From Gemmatimonadota bacterium (GTDB taxonomy: Bacteria; GCA-2686955), in NCBI GenBank assembly GCA_002686955.1, contig NYZA01000226.1, forward strand, positions 1 to 19,758: 19,758 bases of DNA, written 5' to 3'. Below, piece after piece: positions 2,784 through 17,705 of this stretch (within the stretch, counting starts at the first letter, position 1; every line of letters begins with the position of its first letter). The translations under genes and the position numbers were made by a program. The notes under the pieces were generated by a model that had not been told where the DNA came from, did no database searches, and saw only the letters and a list, made by a program, of their open reading frames with translations.

Positions 2784-4349
2784 ATGCTGCATTCGACACC
2801 CCGCACCCGACTACTGAGGCTCCTGCTCACCGCGGCCGCGGGACTGGCCGCGCTCCCGGGCAACGCCATCGGAGCCGAAACACCCGAGGCGATGCCACCG
2901 TACAATATCCTCTTCCTCACCGTCGATGCCTTCAGATCGGACCACATGGGCTGTTACGGATACGCGCGGGAGACATCGCCGCGAATCGATGCTTTCGCGA
3001 AAGAGGAAGCGACGCTTTTCCGCAATTCCATCAGCCACAGCGCGTGGACCGTCCCGGGTGTCGTGAGTCTGTTGACGGGTCAGTATCCCGCGACCCATGG
3101 CATCGATACCCGCCACAAGATCATGGATGAGTTCTTTCCGGCTCCGTTGAAGAAGCTGAGTGAGCTCGGCTACACCAATTTCGGCTATGTCGCTACGGGA
3201 GATGCCTTCTCCAATGTCGGCTTCAATACTCCGGAGGAATTCGTTCGCCCCTCTCTTCAAATGGTGCTCGAGCGCTACCAGAACGAGCGATTCACGATTT
3301 GGTACCACCTGAAGACGACCCATCTTCCCTACGCCGCCAAGAGCGAGATTCGCGAGAGATTCCGCCGTCCCGATTCTCCTGAGATGATGCAGCATCACAC
3401 CAACCTGGTCACCGGTCTATCGATGATCAAGGCAGGCGCCACGACCTGGGATCCGGCCACCAAGCCGACAGTCGAAGACCTCTACGATGCATGCGTCTAC
3501 GAGCAGGATGAGTTCATCGGACAGGTGTTCGAGCACATGAAGCATCTGGGGCTCTGGGACAATACGATCATTATCCTCACCTCGGATCATGGTGAGGAGC
3601 TCTTGGAGCACGGTCTGATCGGTCATGCATCGACCACTCTTCAAGGGACACTTTTCGACGAGGTGCTGCGTATTCCACTGCTCATTCGGATTCCGGGTAT
3701 ACCGGGCGGAGGGATCGTCGAAAGCATCGTTCAGCCCTCGGATGTGATACCTACAGTGTTCGAAGCTCTTGGCCTACCGCCAGTCCCGGGGGTTCAAGGA
3801 CTGTCGCTACTACCCGCAATCGCCGGCAGCGGCCCCGGTCCGAATCGGCGCTATGCTTTCAGTGAGACGACGCCCTGTGGGTGGCAATGCCCCGGGAACC
3901 GAGACAAGACGATCCGCCTGAAGTCGGTTCGTTCGCTCGAATGGAAACTGGTGGTACGCGTCGAAGAGTCCACTCAGAGAACGACTGCCCTGTACGACCT
4001 GAAGAACGATCCCGCCGAGATCACCGATGTCGCCGGAGCGAACCGGGACGTGGTCGCCGAAATGCTGGCCGCGCTTCAGGCCCACGAAGAGGCCAACCTG
4101 GAAGCAGCGTGGCAGGGAATCGAGCGGACGATTGCACACCGCGCGCAGAACATGAGGTTACTCGATCGTGGGGAGCGATCGGCGGAGGCCGCGACCCTCT
4201 GTGACGAGCTCGCCATGCTCCGCTACGTCTTCCGCGTCCAAAACCCGTCGGTATTCGATCGCCGATCCAACGATTGGGCTGCGGCGCTGGGCGGTCTCTG
4301 GTCGCTCGTTGGGAACAAACCGAACTACTGGGTCTGCGAAGAGCTCTGA
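2784..4349 (+). CDS. Exported sulfatase-family (alkaline-phosphatase superfamily) hydrolase
   Basis: I chose the ATG at 2784 because AAGGA lies 6 nt upstream and the product (521 residues) then opens with a signal peptide (basic LHSTPRTRLLRLLL, hydrophobic core, small residues to about Ala31). An earlier in-frame GTG at 2706 would bury that signal. Sulfatase-fold motifs follow in order: DAFRSDHMGCYGY (48-60) for the metal site, AWTVPGVVSLLTG (87-99) at the nucleophile loop, THLPY (179-183), and SDHGEE (267-272) for the second metal half-site, then DEVLRIPLLIRIPG. The nucleophile position is Thr89, with no Cys or Ser-x-Pro-Ser-Arg signature. It therefore cannot carry the formylglycine of classical sulfatases, and a phosphodiesterase or phosphotransferase activity is possible. 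The last 120 residues match nothing I know. Its 3' end overlaps the convergent ceramidase-like gene by 25 bp. Confidence 0.85.
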   Translation: MLHSTPRTRLLRLLLTAAAGLAALPGNAIGAETPEAMPPYNILFLTVDAFRSDHMGCYGYARETSPRIDAFAKEEATLFRNSISHSAWTVPGVVSLLTGQYPATHGIDTRHKIMDEFFPAPLKKLSELGYTNFGYVATGDAFSNVGFNTPEEFVRPSLQMVLERYQNERFTIWYHLKTTHLPYAAKSEIRERFRRPDSPEMMQHHTNLVTGLSMIKAGATTWDPATKPTVEDLYDACVYEQDEFIGQVFEHMKHLGLWDNTIIILTSDHGEELLEHGLIGHASTTLQGTLFDEVLRIPLLIRIPGIPGGGIVESIVQPSDVIPTVFEALGLPPVPGVQGLSLLPAIAGSGPGPNRRYAFSETTPCGWQCPGNRDKTIRLKSVRSLEWKLVVRVEESTQRTTALYDLKNDPAEITDVAGANRDVVAEMLAALQAHEEANLEAAWQGIERTIAHRAQNMRLLDRGERSAEAATLCDELAMLRYVFRVQNPSVFDRRSNDWAAALGGLWSLVGNKPNYWVCEEL

Positions 4350-5662
4350 GCGGCGGCGACGGCGAGGTCGACCAGGGATGTGTGAAGCGCGGCGCCGTAG
4401 TAGACGCGCTCGGCCTCGCCCACGCGCGCACACACCCGATCCGGCTCCTCGACATAACCCAGGTAGCCGTTGGTCAGCCCAACGACGACCGGAGTGGTTC
4501 CGGGAAGCTCCGCCGCGACACCGAGAGCCAGTGCGCGACCACTCGCCCGAACCGGTTCCGCGCCGACCCCTACGAGAGCAAGCGACCCCAGACGCAAGAG
4601 GTCCAGACGCACCGGATCCCGCGCGAAGAACGAGAGTGCATTCGAGGCCGCGACCTGGAAGGGGGCGGGAACCAGCCCGGCGGCATTCGCTTTGAGCGGC
4701 GCCCGCGACGCCGTGGAGGCCCAAAGAGCTCGCTCCGAAGAAGAACGCAGCGGAATCCCTATCGCCGCATTCGCGACCGCCCCGCCGTAGGATTCCATGC
4801 AAGCCTCCGCGCTCCGCCCCCCCTCGCAAGGCGCCGCGCCCAGATCTCCGGCAGCGCCTTGCAGCACCAGCCACTCGCCTCCGAATCGGTGCGAGAGGGC
4901 ACTGGACGCTCGCCCCGGCCAACCGGACGAGAGCGCTCGGGAGCGCCGACCCAGAATAGTCGGATGGGCCGCATGCACGATCAGGCCTCCCAATGCCGGC
5001 TGCCGATCGGGCCGATCGGCCGAGACCGAAACGACCACCAGGGGAGCCGATTCGCTTCGATCGGTGTTCGAACGGGGTCGAGCCAGCCCGTGCTCCTCAT
5101 CGATTCCCCACCGGAGCCGCGCCGGCTGCAGGGTCTGCCGCGCCCTGGTGACGCTCTCGACTATTCGCTCCTCGAGCTGCTCCGTCCACGCCAGATCGAA
5201 TCGTCCCAAGCCGAACGCCTCGGCCAAGGCATTGTCCCAGTGGCCGCCAGGTCCCGCGTGGGTGTGGGTCGCGCAGACCCAAAGCGCATCGCAATCCACG
5301 CGAGCCGCGACCCCTTCTCGCAGCGCCTCGGGGATCAGCACAAGATCGACCGCCACGATGGCGATCGACCGGCCGCCTGCGCGCAACACCATCGCGCTTG
5401 CTCCAACGGAATCAAGCACGGTATCGGCGATGGCGCCCCGCCTCGCGGCGAAACCACCCAGTGGGCAATCCGGGGGCGGCTCGAGAGCGACACGAGAAAA
5501 CCCCGCCTCGAGCTCCCCAACCGCCCTCCATCCCGAGACGATCGGCGCGGCCTCCCCGCCCGACCCCCCGATCTGGAGATCGACGATCATCAGCACGAGT
5601 AGAAGCGCCAAACCGTAGCCGGACCAACGCCCCGCCCACCTCGTGACTCTTCGATTCATCAT
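4325..5662 (-). CDS. Neutral/alkaline ceramidase-like hydrolase, N-terminal domain only
   Basis: This 445-residue protein is anchored or exported by a hydrophobic stretch at 16-31 after a basic start. It carries the zinc-site motifs of the neutral ceramidase fold: THTHAGPGGH (132-141), His230/His233 in IVHAAHPT, Glu369 in GVGAEPVRASG, and the tyrosine-bearing NGYLGY (398-403). Known bacterial neutral ceramidases are about 650 residues long, with a nucleophilic Ser in a GDVSPN loop and a C-terminal beta domain. Here the equivalent loop reads QGAAGDLGAA (268-277), with no Ser after the Asp, and the C-terminal domain is missing. It probably belongs to a ceramidase-like hydrolase group of unknown substrate, perhaps amide or lipid. 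Two ATG codons in tandem (5662 and 5659) could start it. It converges with the sulfatase-like gene. Confidence 0.8.
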   Translation of the reverse strand: MMNRRVTRWAGRWSGYGLALLLVLMIVDLQIGGSGGEAAPIVSGWRAVGELEAGFSRVALEPPPDCPLGGFAARRGAIADTVLDSVGASAMVLRAGGRSIAIVAVDLVLIPEALREGVAARVDCDALWVCATHTHAGPGGHWDNALAEAFGLGRFDLAWTEQLEERIVESVTRARQTLQPARLRWGIDEEHGLARPRSNTDRSESAPLVVVSVSADRPDRQPALGGLIVHAAHPTILGRRSRALSSGWPGRASSALSHRFGGEWLVLQGAAGDLGAAPCEGGRSAEACMESYGGAVANAAIGIPLRSSSERALWASTASRAPLKANAAGLVPAPFQVAASNALSFFARDPVRLDLLRLGSLALVGVGAEPVRASGRALALGVAAELPGTTPVVVGLTNGYLGYVEEPDRVCARVGEAERVYYGAALHTSLVDLAVAAAQSSSQTQ

Positions 5663-5721: not shown

Positions 5722-5748
5722 TTCACACCGCATTCACACCAAGTCACA
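5722..5748. promoter_or_regulatory. Three-fold TTCACA-type direct repeat, possible OmpR/PhoB-class operator
   Basis: TTCACA occurs at 5722-5727 and 5733-5738, and GTCACA at 5743-5748. The starts are 11 and 10 bp apart, about one helical turn. The first two copies share the longer ATTCACACC. Direct repeats with 11-bp phasing are typical of OmpR/PhoB-family response regulators, and the TTCAC core recalls Pho boxes. The cluster lies 60-86 bp upstream of the ceramidase-like start and about 40 bp before the putative small RNA, so it could serve either one. The regulator assignment is inference. Confidence 0.4.
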
Positions 5749-5789
5749 GATTGATCACATTCATGCTCCATCTTGCACAGTAGAAATAA

Positions 5790-5954
5790 GTCGAGCGAAG
5801 CACAGGTTCGATCCCCCAAAGCCTGTCAGCATTGAAGTCCCCCCACTCCGCTGCGCTCGACAGGGGCACCTTCCTCCCCCCTTGAAGGATGCCCCGAGAA
5901 ATCCACCGGCCGGATCAGTCGTCCCCCCACGACACGGCCGGTGGATTCATTTTT
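5790..5954 (+). ncRNA. Candidate small RNA with multiple C-rich loops
   Basis: Consecutive helices are visible on the plus strand. GTCGAGCG (5790-5797) pairs with CGCTCGAC (5854-5861), extended by AGC/GCT across one mismatch. Inside it, ACAGG (5802-5806) pairs with CCTGT (5822-5826). GGGGCA-CCTTC (5863-5873) pairs with GAAGG-A-TGCCCC (5884-5895) across one bulge. A 13-bp terminator-like hairpin follows (5900-5947). C tracts of 5, 6, 6 and 6 nt (5813-5817, 5839-5844, 5876-5881, 5923-5928) fall in loops or linkers rather than stems. Exposed C-rich loops are a known feature of anti-Shine-Dalgarno small RNAs such as the CcsR type. No strong promoter is seen; TAGAAA at 5781-5786 is a possible -10. 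The 5' end is a guess. Confidence 0.4.
5900..5954 (+). terminator. Rho-independent-type terminator hairpin
   Basis: AATCCACCGGCCG (5900-5912) and CGGCCGGTGGATT (5935-5947) form a perfect 13-bp stem. Inside it GTCGT/ACGAC (5918-5922 and 5929-5933) forms a second short stem around a C6 loop. On the plus strand TTTTT follows at 5950-5954. On the minus strand only TTT follows the stem, so the plus-strand reading is better. It could still help stop read-through from the minus-strand gene that ends at 5995. Confidence 0.55.
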
Positions 5955-5994
5955 GGGGTGGTAGGGAGCGGCCACTGGTTGGCCGAATCGGTCC

Positions 5995-7278
5995 TCAGCG
6001 CGGAATCTGAGCAAGCTGAAGCTCGCGCAGCAACCTCTCGAGCTCTTCCGCCTTATTGGCGCCGTCGAGCTCGCCGCTGATCATCTGCACCCATGCGAGC
6101 AGAAAGGGGGCCGCCGGCACCATGCGCACCGCATGGATCGACTTCGGCGATTGAACGCTGGAGCTCAGATGGATCGCGGGCAGGTGTCGGGACGCTTCCG
6201 GGATCGCCTCTTTTCTGAAGCCTCTCCGGTTTCGCTCCAGGAGCACGAAGCCCCCTCGTTTGACGTAAACCACCACGCTGCTACCCGCTCGCCCTTTCAC
6301 GGAGGCGCCCAGCCACTGGAAGAGCCGCCCCATCTCGGAGATCGGAGGATCGCCGGAGCGTGCCAGATCCCCCGCGATCGCGCTCATGACCCATGCGGGC
6401 AGTCCCCCCGGTCCATCGTGGAGCGCAACCCCATGCAGACGCCGAAGAACGTCCTGTGCATGATCGAGGTCGACGGCACCCACCCGGCAGGCGACCGCGC
6501 CCCTGGCCACCGCGGTCCAGACCTGCGAACGGGTGGCCTCGTTCAGCAGCAGCCCCACGGTATGGGAGAGGCGCCCACCTCGACGCCGATCGGGCAGCAC
6601 GGAGTCCACTCCCGATTCCCAGCCGGCGACGAAGGCACAGACCAGGGAGGACCGGCCCAGGCTCTTCGGAGAACTGATCGCTTTCGGGAGCAGGCCGTGG
6701 TCGGTCGCCAGATCGCCGATCAGCTCTCCCACGAAGGTGTCTTCGATCCAGAGCGCGACCACCGGCGCGCCGTCGGGATCGGTCGCGTGGTCCCGCTTCT
6801 TCGCGACACCCTTGACGATCGGCCCCGTCAGCTGCCGCCACCGCTTCAGCTTCGAGAACGCAGACCGCCCAATCGAATAGCCGAAAAGCAGCGCGCCGGC
6901 CAAGGCCACGAGGACGAAATGCCAACGCCGTTTGATCCGCTCTCGCCAAGGAGACACCGAAGTGCTCGGCTCCAGATCGACGTCGAAAGGAAGATCGAAC
7001 CCACCTCCGCCCGAGTCGGCGCTCGCGCGCGTCCGCAAGGCTGGATCCGCCGGCTCGGCGATCGGCTCGGGAGGGGTCAGATACTCCAGGCCCAACCTTC
7101 CCACGGGATCTTCGGCGATGAATCCGTCGAAGGTGGGCGCTGATTCCGAGAAAGGGGCGTGGGCCGTCGTCTCTTGAGCCAAGATCGGCGCGCCGATCAG
7201 CGCACACCCGAGCACCCAAATGAAGGCGATCGACGACGCTCTCTCGCCGCGACCGGATCGGATTCCGCCGCTACTCAA
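5995..7278 (-). CDS. Hypothetical exported/membrane protein
   Basis: I do not recognise this family. I chose the TTG at 7278: AGGA sits 7 nt upstream, the next gene's stop at 7328 is not overlapped, and the product (427 residues) then starts with a clean signal sequence (basic n-region, SIAFIWVLGCALIGAPILA, AQ). Longer in-frame extensions run into the metallophosphoesterase gene and are Arg-rich and non-protein-like. A low-complexity Pro/Ala/Gly-rich stretch of about 80 residues follows. A second helix lies near 120-138 (FVLVALAGALLFGYSIG), after which a soluble domain of about 290 residues runs to the end. That domain has no catalytic motif I can name. It lies 49 bp downstream of the metallophosphoesterase gene and is probably in the same transcript. 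Confidence 0.7.
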   Translation of the reverse strand: MSSGGIRSGRGERASSIAFIWVLGCALIGAPILAQETTAHAPFSESAPTFDGFIAEDPVGRLGLEYLTPPEPIAEPADPALRTRASADSGGGGFDLPFDVDLEPSTSVSPWRERIKRRWHFVLVALAGALLFGYSIGRSAFSKLKRWRQLTGPIVKGVAKKRDHATDPDGAPVVALWIEDTFVGELIGDLATDHGLLPKAISSPKSLGRSSLVCAFVAGWESGVDSVLPDRRRGGRLSHTVGLLLNEATRSQVWTAVARGAVACRVGAVDLDHAQDVLRRLHGVALHDGPGGLPAWVMSAIAGDLARSGDPPISEMGRLFQWLGASVKGRAGSSVVVYVKRGGFVLLERNRRGFRKEAIPEASRHLPAIHLSSSVQSPKSIHAVRMVPAAPFLLAWVQMISGELDGANKAEELERLLRELQLAQIPR

Positions 7279-7283
7279 TCGGT

Positions 7284-7290
7284 CTTCCTC
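7284..7290 (-). promoter_or_regulatory. Ribosome binding site deciding a TTG start
   Basis: Read on the minus strand, GAGGAAG ends 5 nt before the TTG at 7278, so the AGGA core has 7-nt spacing. This is the best Shine-Dalgarno match near the 5' end of the hypothetical protein and supports TTG over the more distant ATG codons. Confidence 0.55.
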
Positions 7291-7327
7291 GGTGTCGTGC
7301 CTTCGGACTCTACCACTAGCCCTAGTG

Positions 7328-8896
7328 TCACCCGACCTGCGCGCGATCGTCAACCGCCGGATCATGCTTCTGTCGTGGAAGGACCGCACCGGGGATCTCC
7401 GCGAGTGGGATGCTCCGTTCTTCCCACCGATAAAGTCGCGCGTGAATGTCCTCTTTGACATGTTTGACGATCAAATGGGTAAAGGGAACTCCGTCTCCCG
7501 CCTCTTGGCCGTCGATCCACGTGCCGGTGTTGAAGTACCAGCCCCCATCTTCGAGGGGCACCTGCAGCGCGTCGTGGGTATGACCGAAGACGACCAGTGG
7601 GACGCCGACCGACTTGCGAATCTTCTCGGCCGTCGGCGGCAGCCAACGCGCGGGATCCAGGTTCCGTCCTTTCTCCATTGCTCTGGCCAAGAGAATCGTC
7701 CCGATCGAGATCCCCGCACCCGCGACCACCGCCCGAACGGGCGTGAGAGCCAAGAAGCCGAGCGCCACCAGAGCGGCCGCCCCGCAGTAGAGGATCACGC
7801 GATCGAGGCAGAGCACCCGGAGCACCTCCCAGATCGAAGCCGTGGCGGGACGCCGGCGGAGGGCATCGAGCTGCAAGACCACGTCGGGGGAGAGGCCAAA
7901 TCCTTCCGCGACTTCATGAAGCTTCCGCAAATGGTCGGCCCTTCGCCGGACCCTTCCCTCATGCCCGTACTGACGCCACAGATTGATCAGCCTCCACGCA
8001 AAATAGGAGTAGTGATAGGCGATCCGGAGCGATCGGCCGAAGCCCTGCCGAATGCTCCAACCGACGAAACGGCGAATCCCCCAGTTCGATTTGCCATGGG
8101 GGTCCATGTGGGGATTGAGATTGATGAAGTAGCGCACGCTGGCGGCGGACAGATTCAGCTCCAACTCCTCGTCGGAATGTCCGGTGCGGGGATCGAGGAA
8201 GGCATCCCACGACGAGCTCGCATCGTACTGGTGGCCGTGCTCCACGTAGACCAGCCCTTGCTCGCAGTAGAACCAGGGGTAGAAGGTGATCCCCGCGTAG
8301 ACCCTCTCGCGCGCCCCCTCATCCACCAGACCGGCCAAGCGCCCCTTGAACTGCTCCTGTACCTCGGGCCAATGGAACTCGACATCGTGGTTGCCGATTA
8401 CTATCGCCAGCTCGTTCCCGGCCGCGACGAAGCGCGCGAAGCGCTCGAAAACTCCCGGGTGCCGGTCGAGGATCCGCTCGAGCTTGCGGTCGACCGCCTG
8501 GGGTCCCGTTCCGATTCCGAAGCGGCGCTCGTCCCCGTGGGCGAGATCGGGATCTTCGCACCAGTCCTCCGGGATCAGATGGACGTGCATGAAGTCGACC
8601 ATGTCGCCGTTGATGATCAGCCGCCAGGGTTGGCCACCGCGCCGGCGCAACGTGTAGTGGTCGAGGAACTCGCAGAGCTTTCTCTCGACCACGACGAGGC
8701 GCCGCAAGAACGCGATGTTACGGCCGGGCTTGCAATCCTCTCCCAAGTGGAGGTCGCTGATGATCAGCAGGTTGGCCGCCCTTCCCGCCCGCGGAGGTGC
8801 GCCTTCTCGACCGAGCGCGCGCCGCCAGCGGGAGGCGATACGCCTCCACAGGCCGCCGTGGCGACGATTCGTCTTTTTCGATCCGCGCGTGGCCAT
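7328..8896 (-). CDS. Calcineurin-like metallophosphoesterase with membrane segment
   Basis: The five metal-binding blocks of the calcineurin-like phosphoesterase fold are present in order: SDLH (47-50), NGD (96-98), GNHD (168-171), EHGHQ (219-223) and GHTH (438-441). The product is 522 residues. About 200 extra residues sit between the fourth and fifth blocks. They include an Arg-rich helical part and a hydrophobic pair of helices at about 368-404, so the enzyme is probably tied to the membrane with its active site split around the insertion. The N-terminus is very basic (RR-rich, 1-40), which suggests binding to phospholipid or nucleic acid. The fold is shared with lipid A enzyme LpxH, but length and insertion differ and the substrate is unknown. 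The ATG at 8896 lies 105 bp after the thioesterase stop, and a membrane protein gene follows. Confidence 0.85.
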   Translation of the reverse strand: MATRGSKKTNRRHGGLWRRIASRWRRALGREGAPPRAGRAANLLIISDLHLGEDCKPGRNIAFLRRLVVVERKLCEFLDHYTLRRRGGQPWRLIINGDMVDFMHVHLIPEDWCEDPDLAHGDERRFGIGTGPQAVDRKLERILDRHPGVFERFARFVAAGNELAIVIGNHDVEFHWPEVQEQFKGRLAGLVDEGARERVYAGITFYPWFYCEQGLVYVEHGHQYDASSSWDAFLDPRTGHSDEELELNLSAASVRYFINLNPHMDPHGKSNWGIRRFVGWSIRQGFGRSLRIAYHYSYFAWRLINLWRQYGHEGRVRRRADHLRKLHEVAEGFGLSPDVVLQLDALRRRPATASIWEVLRVLCLDRVILYCGAAALVALGFLALTPVRAVVAGAGISIGTILLARAMEKGRNLDPARWLPPTAEKIRKSVGVPLVVFGHTHDALQVPLEDGGWYFNTGTWIDGQEAGDGVPFTHLIVKHVKEDIHARLYRWEERSIPLAEIPGAVLPRQKHDPAVDDRAQVG

Positions 8897-9001: not shown

Positions 9002-9448
9002 TCAATCGCCCTCGTCGATCGGAATCAGGCGCAGGAGCTCCCGCGGCATCGGGCGCGCCCGCCCGTCCCGGCCCACGGCCGCATGGATCGTCGAGCCGGA
9101 GGCGAGCAGCTCGCCGTCCGATTGCCGATGAACCTCATAGCTGAAGCGCAGACGGACGCGATTCGCCTCTTCGATGGAGGTCGCGATCAGAACGACATCG
9201 TCGAACTCGGCTCCGCGACGGTACTTGGCCGAGGCCTCCAAGACAGGAATGAACACACCGCGCCCCTCTTCGAGCATGCGGTAGTCGGCCCCCAGCTCGC
9301 GCAAATAGTCGCCACGCCCCGCTTCGAACCAGGCGAAATAGTGGGCGTAGTAGACCACGCCCATGCGGTCGGTTTCGCCATAGCGAACACGATGGGCGGT
9401 GGTCTGCACGTGGGGGAATCGCCGCTTCAGTGCGACCCCTCTCGCCAC
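9002..9448 (-). CDS. Acyl-CoA thioesterase, YbgC/4HBT hotdog family
   Basis: This 148-residue single hotdog-fold protein has the family signature YGETDRMGVVYYAHYFAWFE, with the catalytic Asp27. These enzymes hydrolyse acyl-CoA thioesters in the cytoplasm. YbgC belongs to the Tol-Pal operon in many Gram-negative bacteria, but no tol genes are seen here. The start is a GTG at 9448 with AGGA 7 nt upstream, both inside the end of accA, giving a 22-bp overlap. Coupling with accA, which makes malonyl-CoA, suggests a role in acyl-CoA or fatty-acid metabolism. Naming it 4-hydroxybenzoyl-CoA thioesterase would be over-precise. Confidence 0.88.
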   Translation of the reverse strand: MARGVALKRRFPHVQTTAHRVRYGETDRMGVVYYAHYFAWFEAGRGDYLRELGADYRMLEEGRGVFIPVLEASAKYRRGAEFDDVVLIATSIEEANRVRLRFSYEVHRQSDGELLASGSTIHAAVGRDGRARPMPRELLRLIPIDEGD

Positions 9449-10407
9449 TCACCGATCCTGTTGAAGCGCTCGATCCGCCGCTGGATCAGCTCGTTGCTCA
9501 AGAGAGACGAGAGCTCGTCGAGGTGTGCCTCGATCCTCGCACCGAGCGCGGCGGCGGTGCTCTTCCAATCGGTGTGGGCTCCGGCGACCGGCTCGGGAAT
9601 GATCTCATCGACGAGCCCGAGCTCCTCGAGTTGCGGCGCCGTGAGCTTCAGCGCCTCGGCCGCTGCGGGAGCCATCTCGGGTGTGCGCCAGAGGATCGAT
9701 GCGCAGCCTTCGGGGGAGATGACGCAGTACCATGCGTTTTCAAGCATCAGGAGTCGATCGGCGACGCCGATTCCCAGCGCTCCGCCGCTGCCTCCCTCTC
9801 CGATCACGATCGCGAGGATCGGGACAGCGAGGACGGACATCTCTCGCAGGTTGACCGCGATCGCCTCGGCGATGCCGCGCTCCTCCGATGCGATGCCCGG
9901 AAAAGCGCCCGGCGTATCGACGAACGCGAGGATCGGCAGTCCGAAACGGCCCGCCAACTCCATTATTCGCAACGCCTTGCGGTAGCCCTCGGGATGGGGC
10001 ATTCCGTAGTTGCGCATGATCCGCTTCTTGGTGTCGCGCCCCTTCTGCTGCCCGACAACGGCCACCGATCGCTCGCCGAGGCGGGCCAACCCGCAGACCA
10101 TGGCGGGATCGTCGGCGAAGCGGCGATCGCCGTGCAGCTCGATCCAGTCGCTCAGGATCAAGTCGATATAATCGAGCGTGTGCGGACGTTCGGGATGGCG
10201 CGCGACCTGCACCCGTTCCCAGGTGGTCAGATTGGCGTAGCGCCGGTTTTGCAGCTGAGTGGTCCGGGTCGCGAGCTGCTCAAGCGCATCGGAGACCGCC
10301 TTGCTCTCATCGGGCTCGTCGGTCGTTCCCGTGGCGCTACGGAGCGCGTCGATCCTGGCCTGCAGATTCTGGACGTTGCGGTCGAAATCGCTGAGTGGGT
10401 TGTTCAT
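9427..10407 (-). CDS. accA: Acetyl-CoA carboxylase carboxyltransferase subunit alpha
   Basis: AccA pairs with AccD to transfer the carboxyl group from biotin to acetyl-CoA, the first committed step of fatty acid synthesis. The 326-residue product is close to the usual 320. It carries an N-terminal helical part (1-60), RPHTLDYIDLI (74-84), GDRRFADDPAMVCGLARL (93-110), GQQKGRD (119-125), PEGYRKALRIMELAGRFGLPI (139-159), VDTPGAFPG (163-171) and EGGSGGALGIGVADRLLML (204-222). The ATG at 10407 fits the family start; a longer reading from 10635 runs through the upstream gene and is ignored. The gap to the upstream beta-barrel gene is only 11 bp. dnaE-accA proximity is well known, with here one gene inserted between them. 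accD is not in the window. Confidence 0.96.
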   Translation of the reverse strand: MNNPLSDFDRNVQNLQARIDALRSATGTTDEPDESKAVSDALEQLATRTTQLQNRRYANLTTWERVQVARHPERPHTLDYIDLILSDWIELHGDRRFADDPAMVCGLARLGERSVAVVGQQKGRDTKKRIMRNYGMPHPEGYRKALRIMELAGRFGLPILAFVDTPGAFPGIASEERGIAEAIAVNLREMSVLAVPILAIVIGEGGSGGALGIGVADRLLMLENAWYCVISPEGCASILWRTPEMAPAAAEALKLTAPQLEELGLVDEIIPEPVAGAHTDWKSTAAALGARIEAHLDELSSLLSNELIQRRIERFNRIGEWREGSH

Positions 10408-10418
10408 GGGCGGTGAGT

Positions 10419-11234
10419 CTAGCGAGACTGCCGGTATGTGATGACAAGCTCGCGGCTGAGATCGACGAGCTCCGAGCGCCCGAAGAGATCTCTCACGTTG
10501 AATTGGATGCTGAGCCCTTCGGCGAACTCCACCGAGACCGCGGTGTTCAGATAGCCTCGGCCCGGGTGGCGTAGGGGGATCAGATCGGGATCGTCGTCGT
10601 TGAGTGCGGTCGAGTACTCGAGCGCCCAGTTCCACTGCAGGTTGATCGCGAGATCGAGACCCGCGAAGAGATCGGGACGGTCGTCCTGGGAGCCTCCCTC
10701 GAGCGGATTGTACGAGATGCCGGCATGGAGGCCGAAGCCCTCCAGTGCCGAGTAGCTCTTCGATAGAACGGAGTGAATCCCGCGCGCCTTGAGCTCATAG
10801 CGGCCGGCTTCATCGAACCAGGCGCCGATGCCCTGCGAATCGAATCCAACGATCCACGCGGGCCTGGAGGTGGTTTCGTCCAGCAGGCGGATCTTGAAGT
10901 GCAGCTCCGGTCGCGGATACCACTCGGGACTCCCCTCGCCGAGCACGCCGAGCCCACCGAAGGAGGCACCGATCTGAGCTTGATCGGTGAGCCCCAAGCG
11001 AAAGCGCGCAACCGTTCCACCGGCGTGGAAGGTGCGGATCGCCAGGTCGTAGGTGTCTCGTTCGAGCATTCCCGCCGTCGGCACATCGATCAGCTCCAAG
11101 GGCGGCAGCTGGGGAGGCGGAATCGCCAAAGGGATGCGGGGTGGGGCCTCGGCCTGCCCCAACGCGGGCGAGGCGAGGGCCAGGAAGGCCACGCCGATGG
11201 GATGCCAAGATCGGAACCTGCTCTTCTGGATCAT
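10419..11234 (-). CDS. YjbH-like outer-membrane beta-barrel protein
   Basis: The ATG at 11234 overlaps the dnaE TGA (ATGA), with GGGGA just upstream, and gives a 271-residue product. A signal peptide ending near ALGQA is followed by a Pro-rich linker and IDVPTAGMLERDTYDLAIRT. Alternating short hydrophobic strands come next (VARFRLGLTDQAQIGASFG, PELHFKIRLLDE, FGLHAGISYNP, DLFAGLDLAIN). The protein ends with residues able to form a last barrel strand (ELVITYRQSR). The pattern and the GLTDQAQIGASF-type block match the YjbH/DUF940 group of outer-membrane proteins linked to exopolysaccharide. The product is shorter than E. coli YjbH, about 700 residues, so this covers the barrel part only. No capsule genes are nearby. 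Translation coupling to dnaE is probably positional rather than functional. Confidence 0.7.
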   Translation of the reverse strand: MIQKSRFRSWHPIGVAFLALASPALGQAEAPPRIPLAIPPPQLPPLELIDVPTAGMLERDTYDLAIRTFHAGGTVARFRLGLTDQAQIGASFGGLGVLGEGSPEWYPRPELHFKIRLLDETTSRPAWIVGFDSQGIGAWFDEAGRYELKARGIHSVLSKSYSALEGFGLHAGISYNPLEGGSQDDRPDLFAGLDLAINLQWNWALEYSTALNDDDPDLIPLRHPGRGYLNTAVSVEFAEGLSIQFNVRDLFGRSELVDLSRELVITYRQSR

Positions 11235-14200
11235 GCCTTTCCCCATTCGCTCTTCGAGACCGCCGTCCGCGTCCAGGTCACGTTCCTCACCCCTTCGACC
11301 GCGCGGAGCGCATCGTCGAGAGAGGCCGATGGGCGTACCTTCACATCCTTGAGAGGCAAAGCGACGACGCCGTGCCCCTCGGTTTCCACATTCACCGTTA
11401 TGGGGCAGGTTCCACCGTGGGCTACCAACACCTTTCGCAGAGAACGGGCCACGGGTCGCTGGTGGTCTCCACCGATCCGAAGGTGCAGCCCCGCGGCCAT
11501 CCGGGCGAATGCCTGGTTCAAGGGGAATGCCCTCTCGACGACAATTCCGGTGTCGGCTTCTCGAGTGGAACGGCGGCCGATCACAAGCAACATATCGGTC
11601 TGATCGAGCACTTCGCGGTTGTTCTTGTACGCCTCTGGAAAAAAGACGGCCTCGACCACGGCGGAGAAATCCTCCAGCTCGACTACGCACATCGGCTCCC
11701 CGCGGCGGGTGCTCAGGTTTCTGCGAGAGGTCACCAGTCCCGCGACCGTGAACTCCTCGGCGCTCGGTGTCGCTCCGTCGATCTGCTCCTTGATCGTGTA
11801 GTTCGCGAATCGGTCTATCTCGGTGCGGAAGTCCTCCAGTGGATGCCCCGAGAGGTAGTGTCCCAACACCTCCTTCTCTCGGTTGAGCAGCTCCGCGCGT
11901 TCCCATTCGGGGAGCGTCTCCAAGGGCGGTTCGATCGTCTCACCCGGACCATCTTCGCCAAAAAGCGATGTCTGCCCGGAAGCGACCTCTCGCTGATGGG
12001 CGTGAGCGACGTCGATCGTGCGATCCGCCGATGCGAACTTGCTCGATCGCGTCCCCGGGAAGGAATCGAGGGCCCCCGCGGCGGCCAGGCTTTCGATCAC
12101 ACGTTTGTTGACCAGACGCAGATCGAGGTGCTTGGCCCAAGCGAAAAGGCCTGTGTGTACACCCTTCTTCTTGCGCGCCACGATCATGGACTCGATCGCC
12201 GAGCGGCCGACGTTCTTCACCGCACCGAGACCGAATCGCAGCCCCCCTTCCGACACCGAAAAACCGAACGCCGAGTCGAACACCGAGGGAGGTTCGACGG
12301 CGATCTCGATTCGGCGACACTCATCCATGAAATGCGAGACCTGATCGGAGTCGTTCATCACCGAGGTCATGGTCGCCGCGAGAAACTCCAGCGGATAGTG
12401 CGCCTTCAGATAGGCCGTCTGATACGCCACGTACGCATAGGCCGCGGAATGACTATTGTGAACCAGTAGATCATCCGCCACGAAACAGCGGGTGCCCGGG
12501 ACTTCGAGATCATAGGTCATCGCCTCGCCCGCGGACTCGATCGCCACGATTTCGTCCCAAGCCAGATCCCCTTCGCGGGGCCGGAGCAGAGCGTCGAGAA
12601 TCGCGGTACCGGCCCCCCTAAACACGGTCGTACTCGCGCTACCCCCCTCCCCGCCTGCACGCTTCACCGTCTTGCTCGAGCAAAGAACTTCGTTGGCCGC
12701 CCAGGCGACACAATCGACCACGATCGGCAGCGCCGCTTCGGAACGTCTCGCTTGCGCGACAAATCTCGCGAGCTCCGCCAGCTCGGAAAGCTCCGAGATC
12801 TCCACCCCTTCGCCATCGCGCCTGGCGATTACACCCACGCGACCCAGAAGGTGTTGCAGAAGCTCCCCCCCCCGCGACCAGCGAAGCGTCGCTCCCTCGG
12901 CGCGCGCGCGATGAGCGATGTCGAGCGCAATCAGCTCTCGCAGATCCTCCCGATCGAGTGCCGTGGCATCTTCCCCCAGAGCTTCGATCCCCGCCTCTTC
13001 CTCTTCGACCTCCAATGCGTCGATCCGCGGATGCCCCTCGGCCACCGCCCACGCTATGCGGCGGGGAACGGCCACCCGAACACCCGTCGCCAATTCGTCG
13101 ATGCGGCGCCAACCATCGGGCGAAAGCAGAGGATGATTCGCACTGGCCACCAGCTCGCGGCCGCTGCGCGTCGTTACGCGGAAGACCGGTCGAATACCGT
13201 TCTCGAGAACCGCGGCAACCCGCTCCGATCGAGCCTCGCCGATCACGGGATCGGCGCTGGCGACCTCGAGCGTGCCGCCGGTCGCCGCGGCGGAGGAATG
13301 CAGCGCATCGATCCTCACTCTGCGGCCGCTACGGGCGTCGACCACGAGTGTCTCACCGACGAGGCACTTATTGAAACCGTACTGCGCGAACTCCTCCAAC
13401 AGATCGAACACGGCAAAGGCGGTCTTCCGCCCAATGTTGTTCCCCTCGCAGCCCGAGACGAACACACCTTTCTGCTCGGCCATCACGTCGGCCCTCTTCT
13501 TGCCCATGGCCCGGCGCAGAATATCGGCACCCCCCAGCGAATAGCCGGCCATGATCTGCGCGATCCTCATCACCTGTTCCTGGTAGACGATCACACCGTA
13601 GGTGTCGCGCAGAATCGGCTCCATCGAGGGATGAAGGAGCTCGATCTTCTCTTCACCCTTCTTGCGGGCGATGAAAGCGTCTATGTTCTTCATCGGGCCC
13701 GGTCGATACAGGGCGTTCATTGCGATCAGGTCGGTGATCTTCTCCGGCTTCAGCTTGGTCAGGTATTCCCGCATCCCTCCCGACTCGAACTGGAAGACCC
13801 CCACGGTATCACCGCGGCCGAAGAGCTCGAAGGTCTCTCGATCTTCGAGATCCAGCCGGTCGAAATCGATCTCGACGCCGTGGTTGCGCCGAATCATCTC
13901 GGCCGCGTTGTCGAGAATCGTAAGAGTGCGAAGGCCCAAGAAGTCCATCTTGAGAAGCCCGTACTCCTCGACGAACTTCATATCCCATTGTGTCGCGAGA
14001 TCGCCGTCGGCGTTCTGGAAGAGTGGAACGAAGTTCTCGACCGGCTCGGGCGTTATCACGATTCCGGCGGCATGGATCCCCGCATGGCGACACATCCCTT
14101 CCACCGCTTGCGACATCTCCAGAAGATCCTGATTGATGCCCCCGCCCGAGGCCATCTCACTCAGCTCCGGCACCCGCTCGATCGCCTCGCTCAGAGTGAT

Positions 14201-15613
14201 GTTCAACTCCGTGGGAACGAGCTTCGCGACACGATCCGCCTCGCCGAAGGAGAGACCTAGCACGCGCCCCACATCACGGATGGCGGCCTTCGCTTTCATA
14301 CGGCTGAATGTGATGATCTGGCTGACGCAATCCTTGCCGTACTTCTCCTTCACGTAGTCGATCACCATCTCGCGCCGATCATCGGCGAAGTCGATGTCGA
14401 TATCGGGCATCGTCACGCGCTCCGGATTGAGGAAACGCTCGAAAAGCAAGTCGTATCGCAGCGGGTCGATGTTGGTGATCGCCAGTGCGTAGGCGACGAG
14501 CGAACCCGCCGCGGAGCCGCGCCCCGGCCCCACGGAGCAGCCCATGCGACGCGCCGCGGCGACGAAATCAGCGGTGATCAGGAAGTAGCCGGAGTACCCC
14601 ATGCCCCGAATCGTCTCGAGCTCCGACTCGAGGCGGCGCCACGCGGCATCCGGCACATCGCCCTCATATCTCCCGCGCAACCCCTTTCGCGAGAGATCCG
14701 CCAGATACTCGTCCGCCCCTTCGTACCCCTCCGGGATGTCGAACTTCGGCAACAAGAGCTTCCCGAACTCGAGATCGAGCTCGATCTTCTCGGCGATTTC
14801 GCGCGTCGCCAAGAGCGCCTCTTCGAGATCACCGAATTGTGCCGCCATCTCTTGCGTGGACTTGACGTAGAATTGATCTGAATCGAATCGAAAGCGCTTC
14901 TCGTCGTTTACGTTCTTGCCGGTCTGGACGCAGAGAAGTGCGTCGTGGGCGCGGTGATCGTGCTGGTGCAGATAGTGCGAATCGTTGGTAATGACCAGCG
15001 GCAGATCGAACTCCTCGCGCAGTCGCAGCAAGCCCTTGTTCGCTTGCGCCTGCTCCGGGATTCCATGATCCTGCAGCTCGAGATAGTAGTTGCCTTTGCC
15101 GAACACGTCGCGATGCCAAGCAACACTTTCTCGCGCCCCCTCCTCATCGCCCCGCACCAACCGCCGCTGGAGCTCGCTCGAGAGGCAACCCGAGAGCACG
15201 ATGATCCCTTCGCTGTGACGCTCCAAGACCTCGCGATCGACCCGCGGCTTATAGTAGAAGCCCTCGCGGTAGGCGATCGAAGAGAGCTTGCAGAGATTGC
15301 GAAAACCCTGTTGGTTCTTCGCCAGCATCGTGAGGTGGTAATACGGCTCGAAATCGTCGCCCCGAACCTGTTTTCGCTCGTGGCGGGAAGCAGACGCAAC
15401 ATACGCCTCGAAGCCGATGATCGGCTTCACACCCCGGGCCTGGGCGGCCTTGTAGAACTCGATCGCGCCGAATAGATTGCCGTGATCGGTGACCGCGACC
15501 GCCGGCTGCCCCAGCTCCTTCACGCGATCGACGAGCTTGCCGACGCGGTTGGCGCCGTCGAGAAGCGAGTACTCGCTGTGCAGGTGGAGGTGGACGAAGT
15601 CGGAGGATTGCAC
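11231..15613 (-). CDS. dnaE: DNA polymerase III subunit alpha, intein-containing precursor
   Basis: This is the replicative polymerase. The frame is 1460 residues; removing the 304-residue intein leaves 1156, matching the usual length of about 1160. The N-terminal PHP domain has HLHLHSEYS (8-16), VTDHGN (41-46) and NDSHYLH (210-216), so its metal site looks intact. The catalytic part has GPGRGSAAGSLV (362-373), PDIDIDF (403-409, with Asp404 and Asp406) and Asp557 in LLKMDFLGLRTL. After the intein come the SHSAAYAYVAYQTAYLKAHYP block, a helix-hairpin-helix part (GLGAVKNVG) and an OB-fold domain (FTVAGLVTSRR). The start is GTG at 15613. The M23 gene ends 64 bp upstream and the YjbH-like gene overlaps the stop by 4 bp. 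Confidence 0.97.
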   Translation of the reverse strand: MQSSDFVHLHLHSEYSLLDGANRVGKLVDRVKELGQPAVAVTDHGNLFGAIEFYKAAQARGVKPIIGFEAYVASASRHERKQVRGDDFEPYYHLTMLAKNQQGFRNLCKLSSIAYREGFYYKPRVDREVLERHSEGIIVLSGCLSSELQRRLVRGDEEGARESVAWHRDVFGKGNYYLELQDHGIPEQAQANKGLLRLREEFDLPLVITNDSHYLHQHDHRAHDALLCVQTGKNVNDEKRFRFDSDQFYVKSTQEMAAQFGDLEEALLATREIAEKIELDLEFGKLLLPKFDIPEGYEGADEYLADLSRKGLRGRYEGDVPDAAWRRLESELETIRGMGYSGYFLITADFVAAARRMGCSVGPGRGSAAGSLVAYALAITNIDPLRYDLLFERFLNPERVTMPDIDIDFADDRREMVIDYVKEKYGKDCVSQIITFSRMKAKAAIRDVGRVLGLSFGEADRVAKLVPTELNITLSEAIERVPELSEMASGGGINQDLLEMSQAVEGMCRHAGIHAAGIVITPEPVENFVPLFQNADGDLATQWDMKFVEEYGLLKMDFLGLRTLTILDNAAEMIRRNHGVEIDFDRLDLEDRETFELFGRGDTVGVFQFESGGMREYLTKLKPEKITDLIAMNALYRPGPMKNIDAFIARKKGEEKIELLHPSMEPILRDTYGVIVYQEQVMRIAQIMAGYSLGGADILRRAMGKKRADVMAEQKGVFVSGCEGNNIGRKTAFAVFDLLEEFAQYGFNKCLVGETLVVDARSGRRVRIDALHSSAAATGGTLEVASADPVIGEARSERVAAVLENGIRPVFRVTTRSGRELVASANHPLLSPDGWRRIDELATGVRVAVPRRIAWAVAEGHPRIDALEVEEEEAGIEALGEDATALDREDLRELIALDIAHRARAEGATLRWSRGGELLQHLLGRVGVIARRDGEGVEISELSELAELARFVAQARRSEAALPIVVDCVAWAANEVLCSSKTVKRAGGEGGSASTTVFRGAGTAILDALLRPREGDLAWDEIVAIESAGEAMTYDLEVPGTRCFVADDLLVHNSHSAAYAYVAYQTAYLKAHYPLEFLAATMTSVMNDSDQVSHFMDECRRIEIAVEPPSVFDSAFGFSVSEGGLRFGLGAVKNVGRSAIESMIVARKKKGVHTGLFAWAKHLDLRLVNKRVIESLAAAGALDSFPGTRSSKFASADRTIDVAHAHQREVASGQTSLFGEDGPGETIEPPLETLPEWERAELLNREKEVLGHYLSGHPLEDFRTEIDRFANYTIKEQIDGATPSAEEFTVAGLVTSRRNLSTRRGEPMCVVELEDFSAVVEAVFFPEAYKNNREVLDQTDMLLVIGRRSTREADTGIVVERAFPLNQAFARMAAGLHLRIGGDHQRPVARSLRKVLVAHGGTCPITVNVETEGHGVVALPLKDVKVRPSASLDDALRAVEGVRNVTWTRTAVSKSEWGKA
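12455..13366 (-). other. Intein in DnaE (304 residues, eroded endonuclease)
   Basis: The element interrupts the conserved YGFNK/SHSAAY sequence. The first residue is Cys750 of the precursor (block A, CLVGETLVVDA) and the last is Asn1053, with His before it (LLVHN), followed by +1 Ser. Block B reads ASANHPLLSPDGW (intein 74-86), so His is present but the usual Thr three residues before it is Ser. Block F reads YDLEVPGTRCFVADDLLVHN, with Arg-Cys where His-Asn is common. Intein residues 100-265 match no intact LAGLIDADG motif. Only LLQHLLGRVGVIARR (169-183) resembles the tail of that endonuclease type, so it looks decayed. A run of nine C (12865-12873) lies in this part without breaking the frame. 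Self-splicing is expected, homing is not. Confidence 0.93.
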
Positions 15614-15677: not shown

Positions 15678-17705
15678 CTACCCCCCTCCCGCAACCCCAG
15701 CCCCAATTACAACCGCGGTCCCCGCCTCGACCCGATTGCCCGCCAAATCGACCGCCCGCAAAAGAAGCTCACGCTCGCCCGCCGCCGCCGCGGCCCCGTT
15801 CAGCCGGGCCTCGACCCGATCCCGGGGCCCGTCGAACACCGACAGGACCCAGGCTCCATCGACCAGAAGCTCCACCGAGTCGGCGTCGATCCCAGCACCG
15901 TGGTCGACGAGCTCCCAGCGCAGAACCGTTCCGCCCTTGCGGCCTCGCTCCACCGCGACCGCTCCGGCCACGGGCGCCGCCCCGTCGGAGAAGGGCGCAT
16001 AAACACCGGGACGCGTAATCGCCGCCACCACCGACCGCTCCCCGCAGCGTCCGCCGGCCCTCCGCCAGCGATGAGGACTCCGCCCCCGATCCAATCGGTA
16101 GAGATGAACCGATTCGGGCCGCTCCCCCCCATCCCGCGGAATCTCCAAGTAGGGCGGATCTCTGAAGTAGAGCGTCCGCGGCCCGATCTCCACGGCCGGA
16201 CCGACCCGCTCCAGCCCGGACTCGGGAGCTGGATCCGGGGGTGTCGCGAAAGGCCCGATCGAGACCAGGGCATCGCCGTAAAGCCCCCCTTTCGCGAGCT
16301 CCAGCGCCACCCCGGTCGATCGGTCGATCACACGCGCCTCGCTCCCCCGCTCCAGCGTATGAAAAGGCGTCACCGCCCTCCATTCCAGCTCCCCGAGAAT
16401 CGCCCTCAGCTCGCCCGGACCCCCCGGCCGGAACCACGCAATCCAACGATCGCTCCCGATCGGCCTGAGCAGAATCGACTCCACCTCCTCGCCCCGCTCG
16501 AAAAGCAGCCGCGGCTCATCTCGCGCCGCGTGAGCGGACGGCGCCCGAACCACCACAGCCAGACGCCCATTCGCCGGCGCCGCGCGCCCATCCAGGGCCC
16601 GCCGCTCGCCCTCCGACCCGATAGAGGGAGGCCCCAGCCGAAGGACCGCCTCGGCGCGGTTTCCCGCCCGGTCCCAAAAAAGGATCGAAACCTCCCCCGG
16701 CCCACTCCCCTTCACCCAGCCCAGCGCCCGGTTCGGAGCCGTCGCGCGGAGGTGCTCGTCCTCCCCGTCCGCCGGCACATCGAGACGCACCCGCGACCGC
16801 GCTCCCGGCTCCTCGGAGAGACCGGAGTAGAGATGACGAGAGCGAGCGGCCGCGCCCCACGAGAATCGATCGAGGCGCAGCTCCAGCACCCTCTTACCGT
16901 CCTGCTCGACGGCGCCGCCCGCGACCGCCAGCTTGCCTCGGCGGCCGTCGTCGCGATCGTATACGTCGACCTCGAATCTCGCCCCACCCTCGAGTCCGAT
17001 CGGATCTCGGCCGCGATAACGACGCACGCCGGGTGTCCCCTCCCCCGCCACCAGAGGGATCTCGGCCGCGAAGGGGCTTCCGTCGATATGCGCGCCGGGC
17101 TCCGCCGGAACGATGCGGATCGACTCGATCACCGGAGGAACCGAGTCGGCGGTCGAAAGCCCATTCGCCAGGGGATCGATCGGACGGTTAGCGGCATCTC
17201 GCAGTTCGAAATGCAGATGGGGAACGGTCGTACCCGCCTGGCCGGACCACGCGACGATCTCGCCGGCCTCGAATCGAAAACGATCGTCGGGGAGATGCCA
17301 ATCGAGGCGGTAGGCCCGCTTCTCGATCTGCCGGCGCCGAACCGGCTCCGCGAGAGAGGGGACCAGCCCGCTCAGGTGCCCGTAAACAGCGGTGCGCCCA
17401 TCATCGAGACGCAGATAGAGCGCCCGCCCATAGCCGTCGGGGGCCATCTTGATCCGAGTCACCACGCCCGCGCCGACCGCACGGACCGGAACGCCGATCC
17501 GCGCGTTGGTCGAGAGATCCACCCCCCCGTGCAGCCGGCTCGCGCGGTACTCGCAGAAGCTCGATGTCACCGCCAAGGGTCGATCGATCGGGGGATGGAG
17601 AGAGCCCGCTTGGGCCGTGCCCCCGGCCAGGAGCAGACGCAATACCGCCGTGGAGGCACGGGCGGGCAGCGAGGCGCGCGCGTACGTGGGTTGTCTTCCG
17701 ATCAT
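15678..17705 (-). CDS. Secreted M23-family metallopeptidase with large C-terminal beta-domain region
   Basis: The ATG at 17705 gives 675 residues, beginning with a probable signal peptide (basic start, AVLRLLLAGGTAQA). The M23/LytM-type zinc motifs follow: RLHGGVDLS (57-65, His59 and Asp63), YGHLSG (108-113) and HLHFEL (163-168). This enzyme class cuts peptidoglycan cross-bridges, or acts as an amidase activator when the site is degenerate; here all ligands are present. The remaining 500 residues are very GC-rich. They contain repeated beta-type segments near the end, such as GIDADSVELLVDGAWVLS and LLLRAVDLAGNRVEAG, that look like Ig/Big-fold domains. The start has no strong Shine-Dalgarno sequence. 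The gene is divergent from the PpiD-like gene by 132 bp and heads the dnaE train. Confidence 0.88.
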   Translation of the reverse strand: MIGRQPTYARASLPARASTAVLRLLLAGGTAQAGSLHPPIDRPLAVTSSFCEYRASRLHGGVDLSTNARIGVPVRAVGAGVVTRIKMAPDGYGRALYLRLDDGRTAVYGHLSGLVPSLAEPVRRRQIEKRAYRLDWHLPDDRFRFEAGEIVAWSGQAGTTVPHLHFELRDAANRPIDPLANGLSTADSVPPVIESIRIVPAEPGAHIDGSPFAAEIPLVAGEGTPGVRRYRGRDPIGLEGGARFEVDVYDRDDGRRGKLAVAGGAVEQDGKRVLELRLDRFSWGAAARSRHLYSGLSEEPGARSRVRLDVPADGEDEHLRATAPNRALGWVKGSGPGEVSILFWDRAGNRAEAVLRLGPPSIGSEGERRALDGRAAPANGRLAVVVRAPSAHAARDEPRLLFERGEEVESILLRPIGSDRWIAWFRPGGPGELRAILGELEWRAVTPFHTLERGSEARVIDRSTGVALELAKGGLYGDALVSIGPFATPPDPAPESGLERVGPAVEIGPRTLYFRDPPYLEIPRDGGERPESVHLYRLDRGRSPHRWRRAGGRCGERSVVAAITRPGVYAPFSDGAAPVAGAVAVERGRKGGTVLRWELVDHGAGIDADSVELLVDGAWVLSVFDGPRDRVEARLNGAAAAAGERELLLRAVDLAGNRVEAGTAVVIGAGVAGGG

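Follow-up and report, generated by a model that had tools for sequence, protein, structure and literature searches.

A candidate C-loop small RNA gene and a second locus of the same plan in a Gemmatimonadota draft genome

Small RNAs (sRNAs) that act through C-rich loops without Hfq are already known from Gram-positive bacteria, actinobacteria and xanthomonads, and related RNAs directed against Shine-Dalgarno (SD) sequences are known from alphaproteobacteria. Going by the title of Mai et al. 2019, 6C reportedly uses C-rich loops to bind its targets independently of RNA chaperones. Loops of six or more C in 6C/B11 pair with G tracts at ribosome-binding sites, and two such C-run loops redundantly repress eccB4, whose 5' UTR carries a six-G tract (PMC10470900). 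The sX13 RNA of Xanthomonas is built from three stable stems with C4, C4 and C5 loops and represses, independently of Hfq, mRNAs with G-rich motifs near their start (PMC3771888). In alpha-r14/NfeR1, three hairpins with very variable stems keep the anti-SD motif unpaired, and pairing of its three CCUCCUCCC sites with mRNAs has been predicted computationally (PMC10746234). LhrC1-5 of Listeria, which is multicopy, carries three redundant UCCC sites located in a loop, a linker and the terminator loop, and Hfq is dispensable for its effect on lapB (PMC4132741).

The window analysed here is an entire contig (G000:C226) of 19,758 nucleotides, belonging to a draft genome of 4.28 Mb that is 84.5% complete. 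Positions 5790-5954 on its plus strand are best read as the gene of a trans-acting C-loop sRNA, forming a co-regulated pair with a locus on contig C66 and targeting G-rich translation starts; we assign this reading a probability of roughly 0.68. A plus-strand sRNA of anti-SD type with C-rich loops had already been proposed in a first-pass annotation of the window, and it is still the best reading now that C66 is seen to repeat the architecture, the array promoter and the orientation. The element is flanked by a ceramidase-like gene (PF04734) at 4325-5662 and by a gene without a Pfam family at 5995 to about 7215 (also given to 7461), both on the minus strand. According to the draft gene calls, no plus-strand gene starts within about 12 kb downstream of the element. 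Base by base, about 1.83 Mb of other contigs were read together with the window, making 1.85 Mb or about 43% of the genome, and the remainder was covered by two whole-genome pattern searches; the term intergenic refers to gene calls made with a simple script based on codon usage, in place of a standard gene finder. The comparison genome (G001), a sister from the same family and a different genus, is the only other genome of the phylum examined. Hfq was sought in both phylum genomes, each about 84% complete, and was not found, which fits with Hfq-independent C-loop RNAs such as sX13 (PMC3771888). The 16S gene, sought in the same two metagenome-assembled genomes, was not found either, and a search for tRNA and tmRNA returned none.

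Folding reproduced the three stem-loop units of the first-pass annotation, with stems of 12 (one mismatch), 11 (one bulge) and 13 bp. Domain 1 (5790-5861) consists of an outer stem, P1 (5790-5801/5850-5861), of 12 positions with one A:G mismatch, which encloses hairpin P2 (5802-5826) and, at 5836-5847, AGU-C6-ACU as either a weak hairpin or a single-stranded linker; C66 has the same layout. Domain 2 is formed by P3 (5863-5895), whose 11-bp stem (5863-5873/5884-5895) contains a bulged A5889. Domain 3 (5900-5954) comprises P4, a perfect 13-bp stem (5900-5912/5935-5947) with a GUCGU-C6-ACGAC top, followed by CA and T5 (5950-5954). This closing hairpin and its T5, likewise as annotated before, constitute by their sequence and folding an intrinsic-terminator-like 3' end. 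A simple consensus terminator scan of the window did not list P4, as that scan permits loops of 3-8 bases and the apical part of P4 is large.

The four C5-C6 tracts, earlier described as exposed, are indeed predicted to be so. The UC5 tract in the P2 loop (5813-5817) has a mean unpaired probability of 0.91, followed by the C6 tracts of the weak hairpin or linker (5839-5844; 0.99), of the P3 loop (5876-5881; 1.00) and of P4 (5923-5928; 0.99). For comparison, only some 13% of the C5+ tracts in dinucleotide shuffles of the element are unpaired at >0.9. The fold of 5790-5949 reaches -72.0 kcal/mol (z -6.8 against dinucleotide shuffles) and was matched by none of the shuffles; a longer stretch, 5780-5960, gives z -4.4. 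A dispersed palindromic repeat had been raised as a possible source of the stems, and a search for copies showed that they do not belong to one, the sequence being single-copy in the genome.

Throughout the 1.85 Mb, only 5 places outside genes have four C5+ tracts within 120 nt, and at two of these five the tracts are arranged as tandem C-loop hairpins: the window element and C66 (L179; minus strand, 17726-17593). These are also the only clusters of at least three intergenic C-loop hairpins in that sequence. At C66, an outer stem GCTGGAC/GTCCAGC surrounds a pair of hairpins whose loops contain C8 and C6, and it is followed by a bulged hairpin with a C7 loop and then by a long hairpin, again with a C7 loop. 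The order of outer stem with two C-loops, bulged hairpin and long hairpin is common to both loci. Their stems have little sequence in common, and with alignment by position only, 6 of 8 outer-stem pairs differ on both sides, which may be taken as a weak form of covariation evidence. P4 is still recognisable between the two (CACCGG...TCGT-C run...ACGGCCGGTG); at C66 it is not followed by a T run. The C strand of C66 folds with z -5.2 and leaves its four tracts unpaired at 0.89-1.0, so that all eight tracts of the two elements have unpaired probabilities of 0.89 or more. All eight also start with U, compared with 41% of intergenic C5+ tracts in the genome, and therefore have a common motif, U-C5-8, an extended UCCC. 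Across the whole genome, C6 triples at such spacing are found at these two loci and at C134; the latter was rejected as a third element as it lies antisense inside a coding gene. The same search in G001 found none.

At both loci the element is preceded by a promoter-like array. In the window, a genome pattern search located four plus-strand TCAC direct repeats at 5723-5758 (starts 5723, 5734, 5744 and 5755), similar to boxes of the OmpR/PhoB family. The spacing is 11/10/11 bp here and 10/11/11 bp at C66, and exactly 26 nt lead from the start of the last TCAC to a TAnAA -10-like box at both loci. In the window this box, assigned by its position relative to the last TCAC, reads TAGAAA (5781-5786, plus strand), and transcription is predicted to start near 5790-5794. 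Searching all 4.28 Mb of the genome for three TCAC spaced 10-11 bp apart gave these two loci and no others; chance alone would yield about 1.3 single triple arrays over that length, and a whole-genome control with the pattern read backward gave zero. For a four-repeat array, the chance expectation in a given 150 nt is about 1.5e-7, a value that serves as a guide and not as a pre-fixed test, since the motif was derived from these same two loci. A pairwise alignment of the two promoters scored 38, higher than any of 5000 shuffles; however, 38 is also reached elsewhere in the same genome by an unrelated stretch. The alignment was therefore dropped as evidence, and the exact repeat spacing alone is used.

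In M. tuberculosis, PhoP recognizes TCACAGC repeats separated by a 4-bp spacer, with tighter binding to three or four in a row, and the PhoP site of S. coelicolor is GTTCACC-N4-GTTCACC (PMC4832192). The array geometry resembles such response-regulator boxes in its direct repeats in helical phase, its TCAC core and its end at the -35 position, about 20 nt before the -10 box at both loci. It differs in mixing 10 and 11 bp spacing and in occurring at no third locus. At C66 the array follows a kinase gene (PF00485), the upstream neighbour, encoded on the same strand as the C-rich RNA; the window array, by contrast, comes after the start of a divergent gene. Given these differing neighbours, nothing but the C-loop RNA accompanies both arrays, and the array points to transcription along the C-rich strand at both loci. 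The same promoter layout further suggests that one OmpR/PhoB-family response regulator probably switches on both RNAs. Regex searches for PstB and PhoB were uninformative; a true OmpR-family regulator, that of L140, escaped the regex.

Convergent with the C66 RNA, at 17357-17554 on the plus strand, lies a C-terminal 65-residue remnant of a PHO4/PiT phosphate transporter (PF01384 positions 288-349 of 350, E 8e-15), the rest of the gene being absent there. This remnant, the only phosphate link at the array loci, hints at phosphate; it stays a hint because the PiT transporters of G001 have no adjoining C-loop element. Separately, an intergenic 16-mer containing a TCAC pair, CTCACGCACCCTTCAC, is present on two contigs (L209, 10389-10404, minus; L252, 12034-12049, plus), with a similar 16-mer at L168 (3031-3046). 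It is possibly a repeat element.

The first-pass annotation had proposed a search of Rfam. This returned no family in the window at the gathering score, and only sub-threshold alignments to alpha-r14 and 6C were seen. The best Rfam alignment of the window element is to alpha-r14 (RF02344), at 21.6 bits against a threshold of 58.8. C66 aligns with 6C (RF01066) at 24.0 bits, against a gathering threshold of 47 bits, and second best with alpha-r14 at 19.9 bits, again below 58.8. For the window element, the Rfam scans list no match to 6C or sX13, and they contain none to LhrC. The appearance of alpha-r14 among the top matches of both elements reflects a common architecture of C-rich loops and a terminal hairpin rather than proven common descent.

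Like alpha-r14/NfeR1, the elements carry hairpins with an unpaired anti-SD-type motif, but alpha-r14 has CCUCCUCCC in each of three hairpins, whereas the tracts here are U-C5-8 without the CCU repeat; the same motif difference separates them from CcsR-type RNAs, and the host is not alphaproteobacterial. The likeness to CcsR that the first-pass annotation had drawn thus holds as an analogy and fails as membership, the UC5-8 tracts being closer to those of 6C/B11 and sX13 than to CCUCCUCCC. With 6C the two elements have in common adjacent hairpins, P3 and P4, with C6-C7 loops. 6C has been described as actinobacterial and has two C-run loops, in contrast to the four tracts, outer stem and repeat-array promoter found here. 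Compared to sX13, they possess four tracts, longer C runs and a branched first domain. UCCC, the site used by LhrC, is contained in all eight tracts, but each RNA here has four tracts, its C runs are long and its stems GC-rich, and there are only two loci. Mechanistically, both elements go with the C-loop RNAs, since their stable folds expose C-rich tracts in loops or linkers; a promoter-like array is present at both loci, and a hairpin plus T5 in the window only. By this analogy, both would work like 6C/B11, sX13, alpha-r14 and LhrC without belonging to these families.

Searches for orthologues by DNA similarity in 60 genomes, phages and plasmids gave no counterpart of the window element. One hit in G020 (37 bits) was rejected because it amounts to a short stretch of CCTCCCCCCTTGAAGGA whose context is unrelated. 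G001 yielded no counterpart either; there the contig ends inside the ceramidase-like gene and gene 5995-7461 has no homologue. Comparative support is confined to the intragenomic pair of window element and C66. A scan of 1.26 Mb from other genomes turned up clusters of three C-loop hairpins at just three places, on three contigs of other bacteria (L012, 8265-8523; L016, 8148-8401; L023, 2708-2966). These triplets are near-identical, with matching spacing, and are taken as one conserved stretch.

We postulate that an RNA of about 165 nt is made from its own activator-type promoter and ends at the terminator-like hairpin. Its rigid stems would present the four U-C5/6 tracts in loops or linkers, and each tract could base-pair to a ribosome-binding region rich in G (GGGGGA-like), thereby blocking translation initiation. 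Such pairing is proposed by analogy with sX13, 6C/B11 and LhrC. Four equivalent tracts would allow several mRNAs to be hit, or one mRNA redundantly. At the SD position of the genome, AGGA/GGAG is clearly enriched and dominant, and GGGGG or G5-6 is enriched slightly to modestly. Single genes with G5-6 at this position include those for a SpoIID-like protein, an rpoB-like product and a proton-antiporter/complex-I-type subunit. Possible target leaders include GUGGGGGAC (L215:1023-2930, minus), GUGGGGGGAG (L249:8214-9551, plus) and GAGGGGGAU (L239:15432-16226, plus). In a comparison of duplex energies over about 43% of the genome, start regions were no better than gene interiors; target prediction by duplex energy was discarded as uninformative, and for this reason no target is named.

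That the RNA is real and its C loops bind a protein, another sRNA or Rho instead of mRNA ribosome-binding sites is an alternative that we consider unlikely. It draws on this missing enrichment of predicted pairing at start regions and on the small number of G5-6 tracts near starts. Both observations come from a target analysis that covered only about 43% of the genome, and the known RNAs with similar loops pair with G-rich starts (sX13, PMC3771888; B11/6C, PMC10470900; LhrC, PMC4132741).

The functional transcript might instead be carried by the minus strand, with GGGGGGA-loop hairpins serving as a terminator or leader, or as a CsrA-type sponge; gene 5995-7461 would then carry the hairpins in its 3' UTR, and gene 4325-5662 in its 5' leader. 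Both flanking genes are on that strand, the G strand of the window element also folds well (-85.8 kcal/mol, z -5.2), and its GGA-containing loops look like CsrA sites. We nevertheless regard a minus-strand function as quite improbable. CsrA was sought in the genome and not found, and the T5 follows P4 on the plus strand, whereas the minus strand has only TTTCTC after the stem. The common promoter array is oriented along the C strand at both loci, and the G strand of C66 folds no better than its shuffles (z -0.8). Furthermore, the upstream neighbour at C66 is encoded on the C strand, so the gene context changes between the loci and the array does not.

We consider it very improbable that the hairpins stacked up by chance in GC-rich intergenic DNA, or that a terminator lies beside unrelated palindromes. 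C5+ runs are indeed frequent in this GC-rich genome (4575 in 1.85 Mb) and no orthologue is known. The window element is single-copy, however, one other locus repeats its four-tract plan together with a promoter array that the genome otherwise lacks, and the only hairpin clusters elsewhere, in the 1.26 Mb of other genomes, come from the one conserved stretch described above.

Returning to the plus-strand C-loop sRNA, we tentatively suggest that the two loci may represent a new sRNA family of co-regulated quadruple-C-loop RNAs, belonging to a poorly studied phylum whose two examined genomes gave no Hfq; the stems would have diverged, with loops, order and promoter retained. They could be controlled by a dedicated response regulator, possibly a phosphate-sensing one, and act redundantly on G-tract ribosome-binding sites. 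The pair comes from a deep uncultured lineage and has no detectable homology to known C-loop RNAs, which suggests that a design of rigid stems mainly displaying UC runs arose repeatedly. A covariance model of the window element (R1), run against the two phylum genomes, missed the C66 locus, which scored 18.8 bits in a direct full-model scan of that stretch. A search rule that combines clusters of C-loop hairpins with a repeat-array promoter is therefore useful for finding such RNAs where sequence and covariance searches fail.

Further observations concern the remainder of the window. An AccA-type carboxyltransferase is encoded at 9427-10635 on the minus strand; as the family match begins only at residue 82 of the longest frame, the true start may lie downstream, at 10407 according to the draft gene calls. 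The DNA polymerase III alpha subunit (11231-15613, minus) contains an internal match to an intein-splicing domain at residues about 797-1053. At the end of the contig (19703-19758), a perfect 28-bp G-rich tandem repeat, GGGGGGTTGCTCCGGGGGGGGAGCCGCT, is present in two copies, and the assembly probably broke at this repeat.
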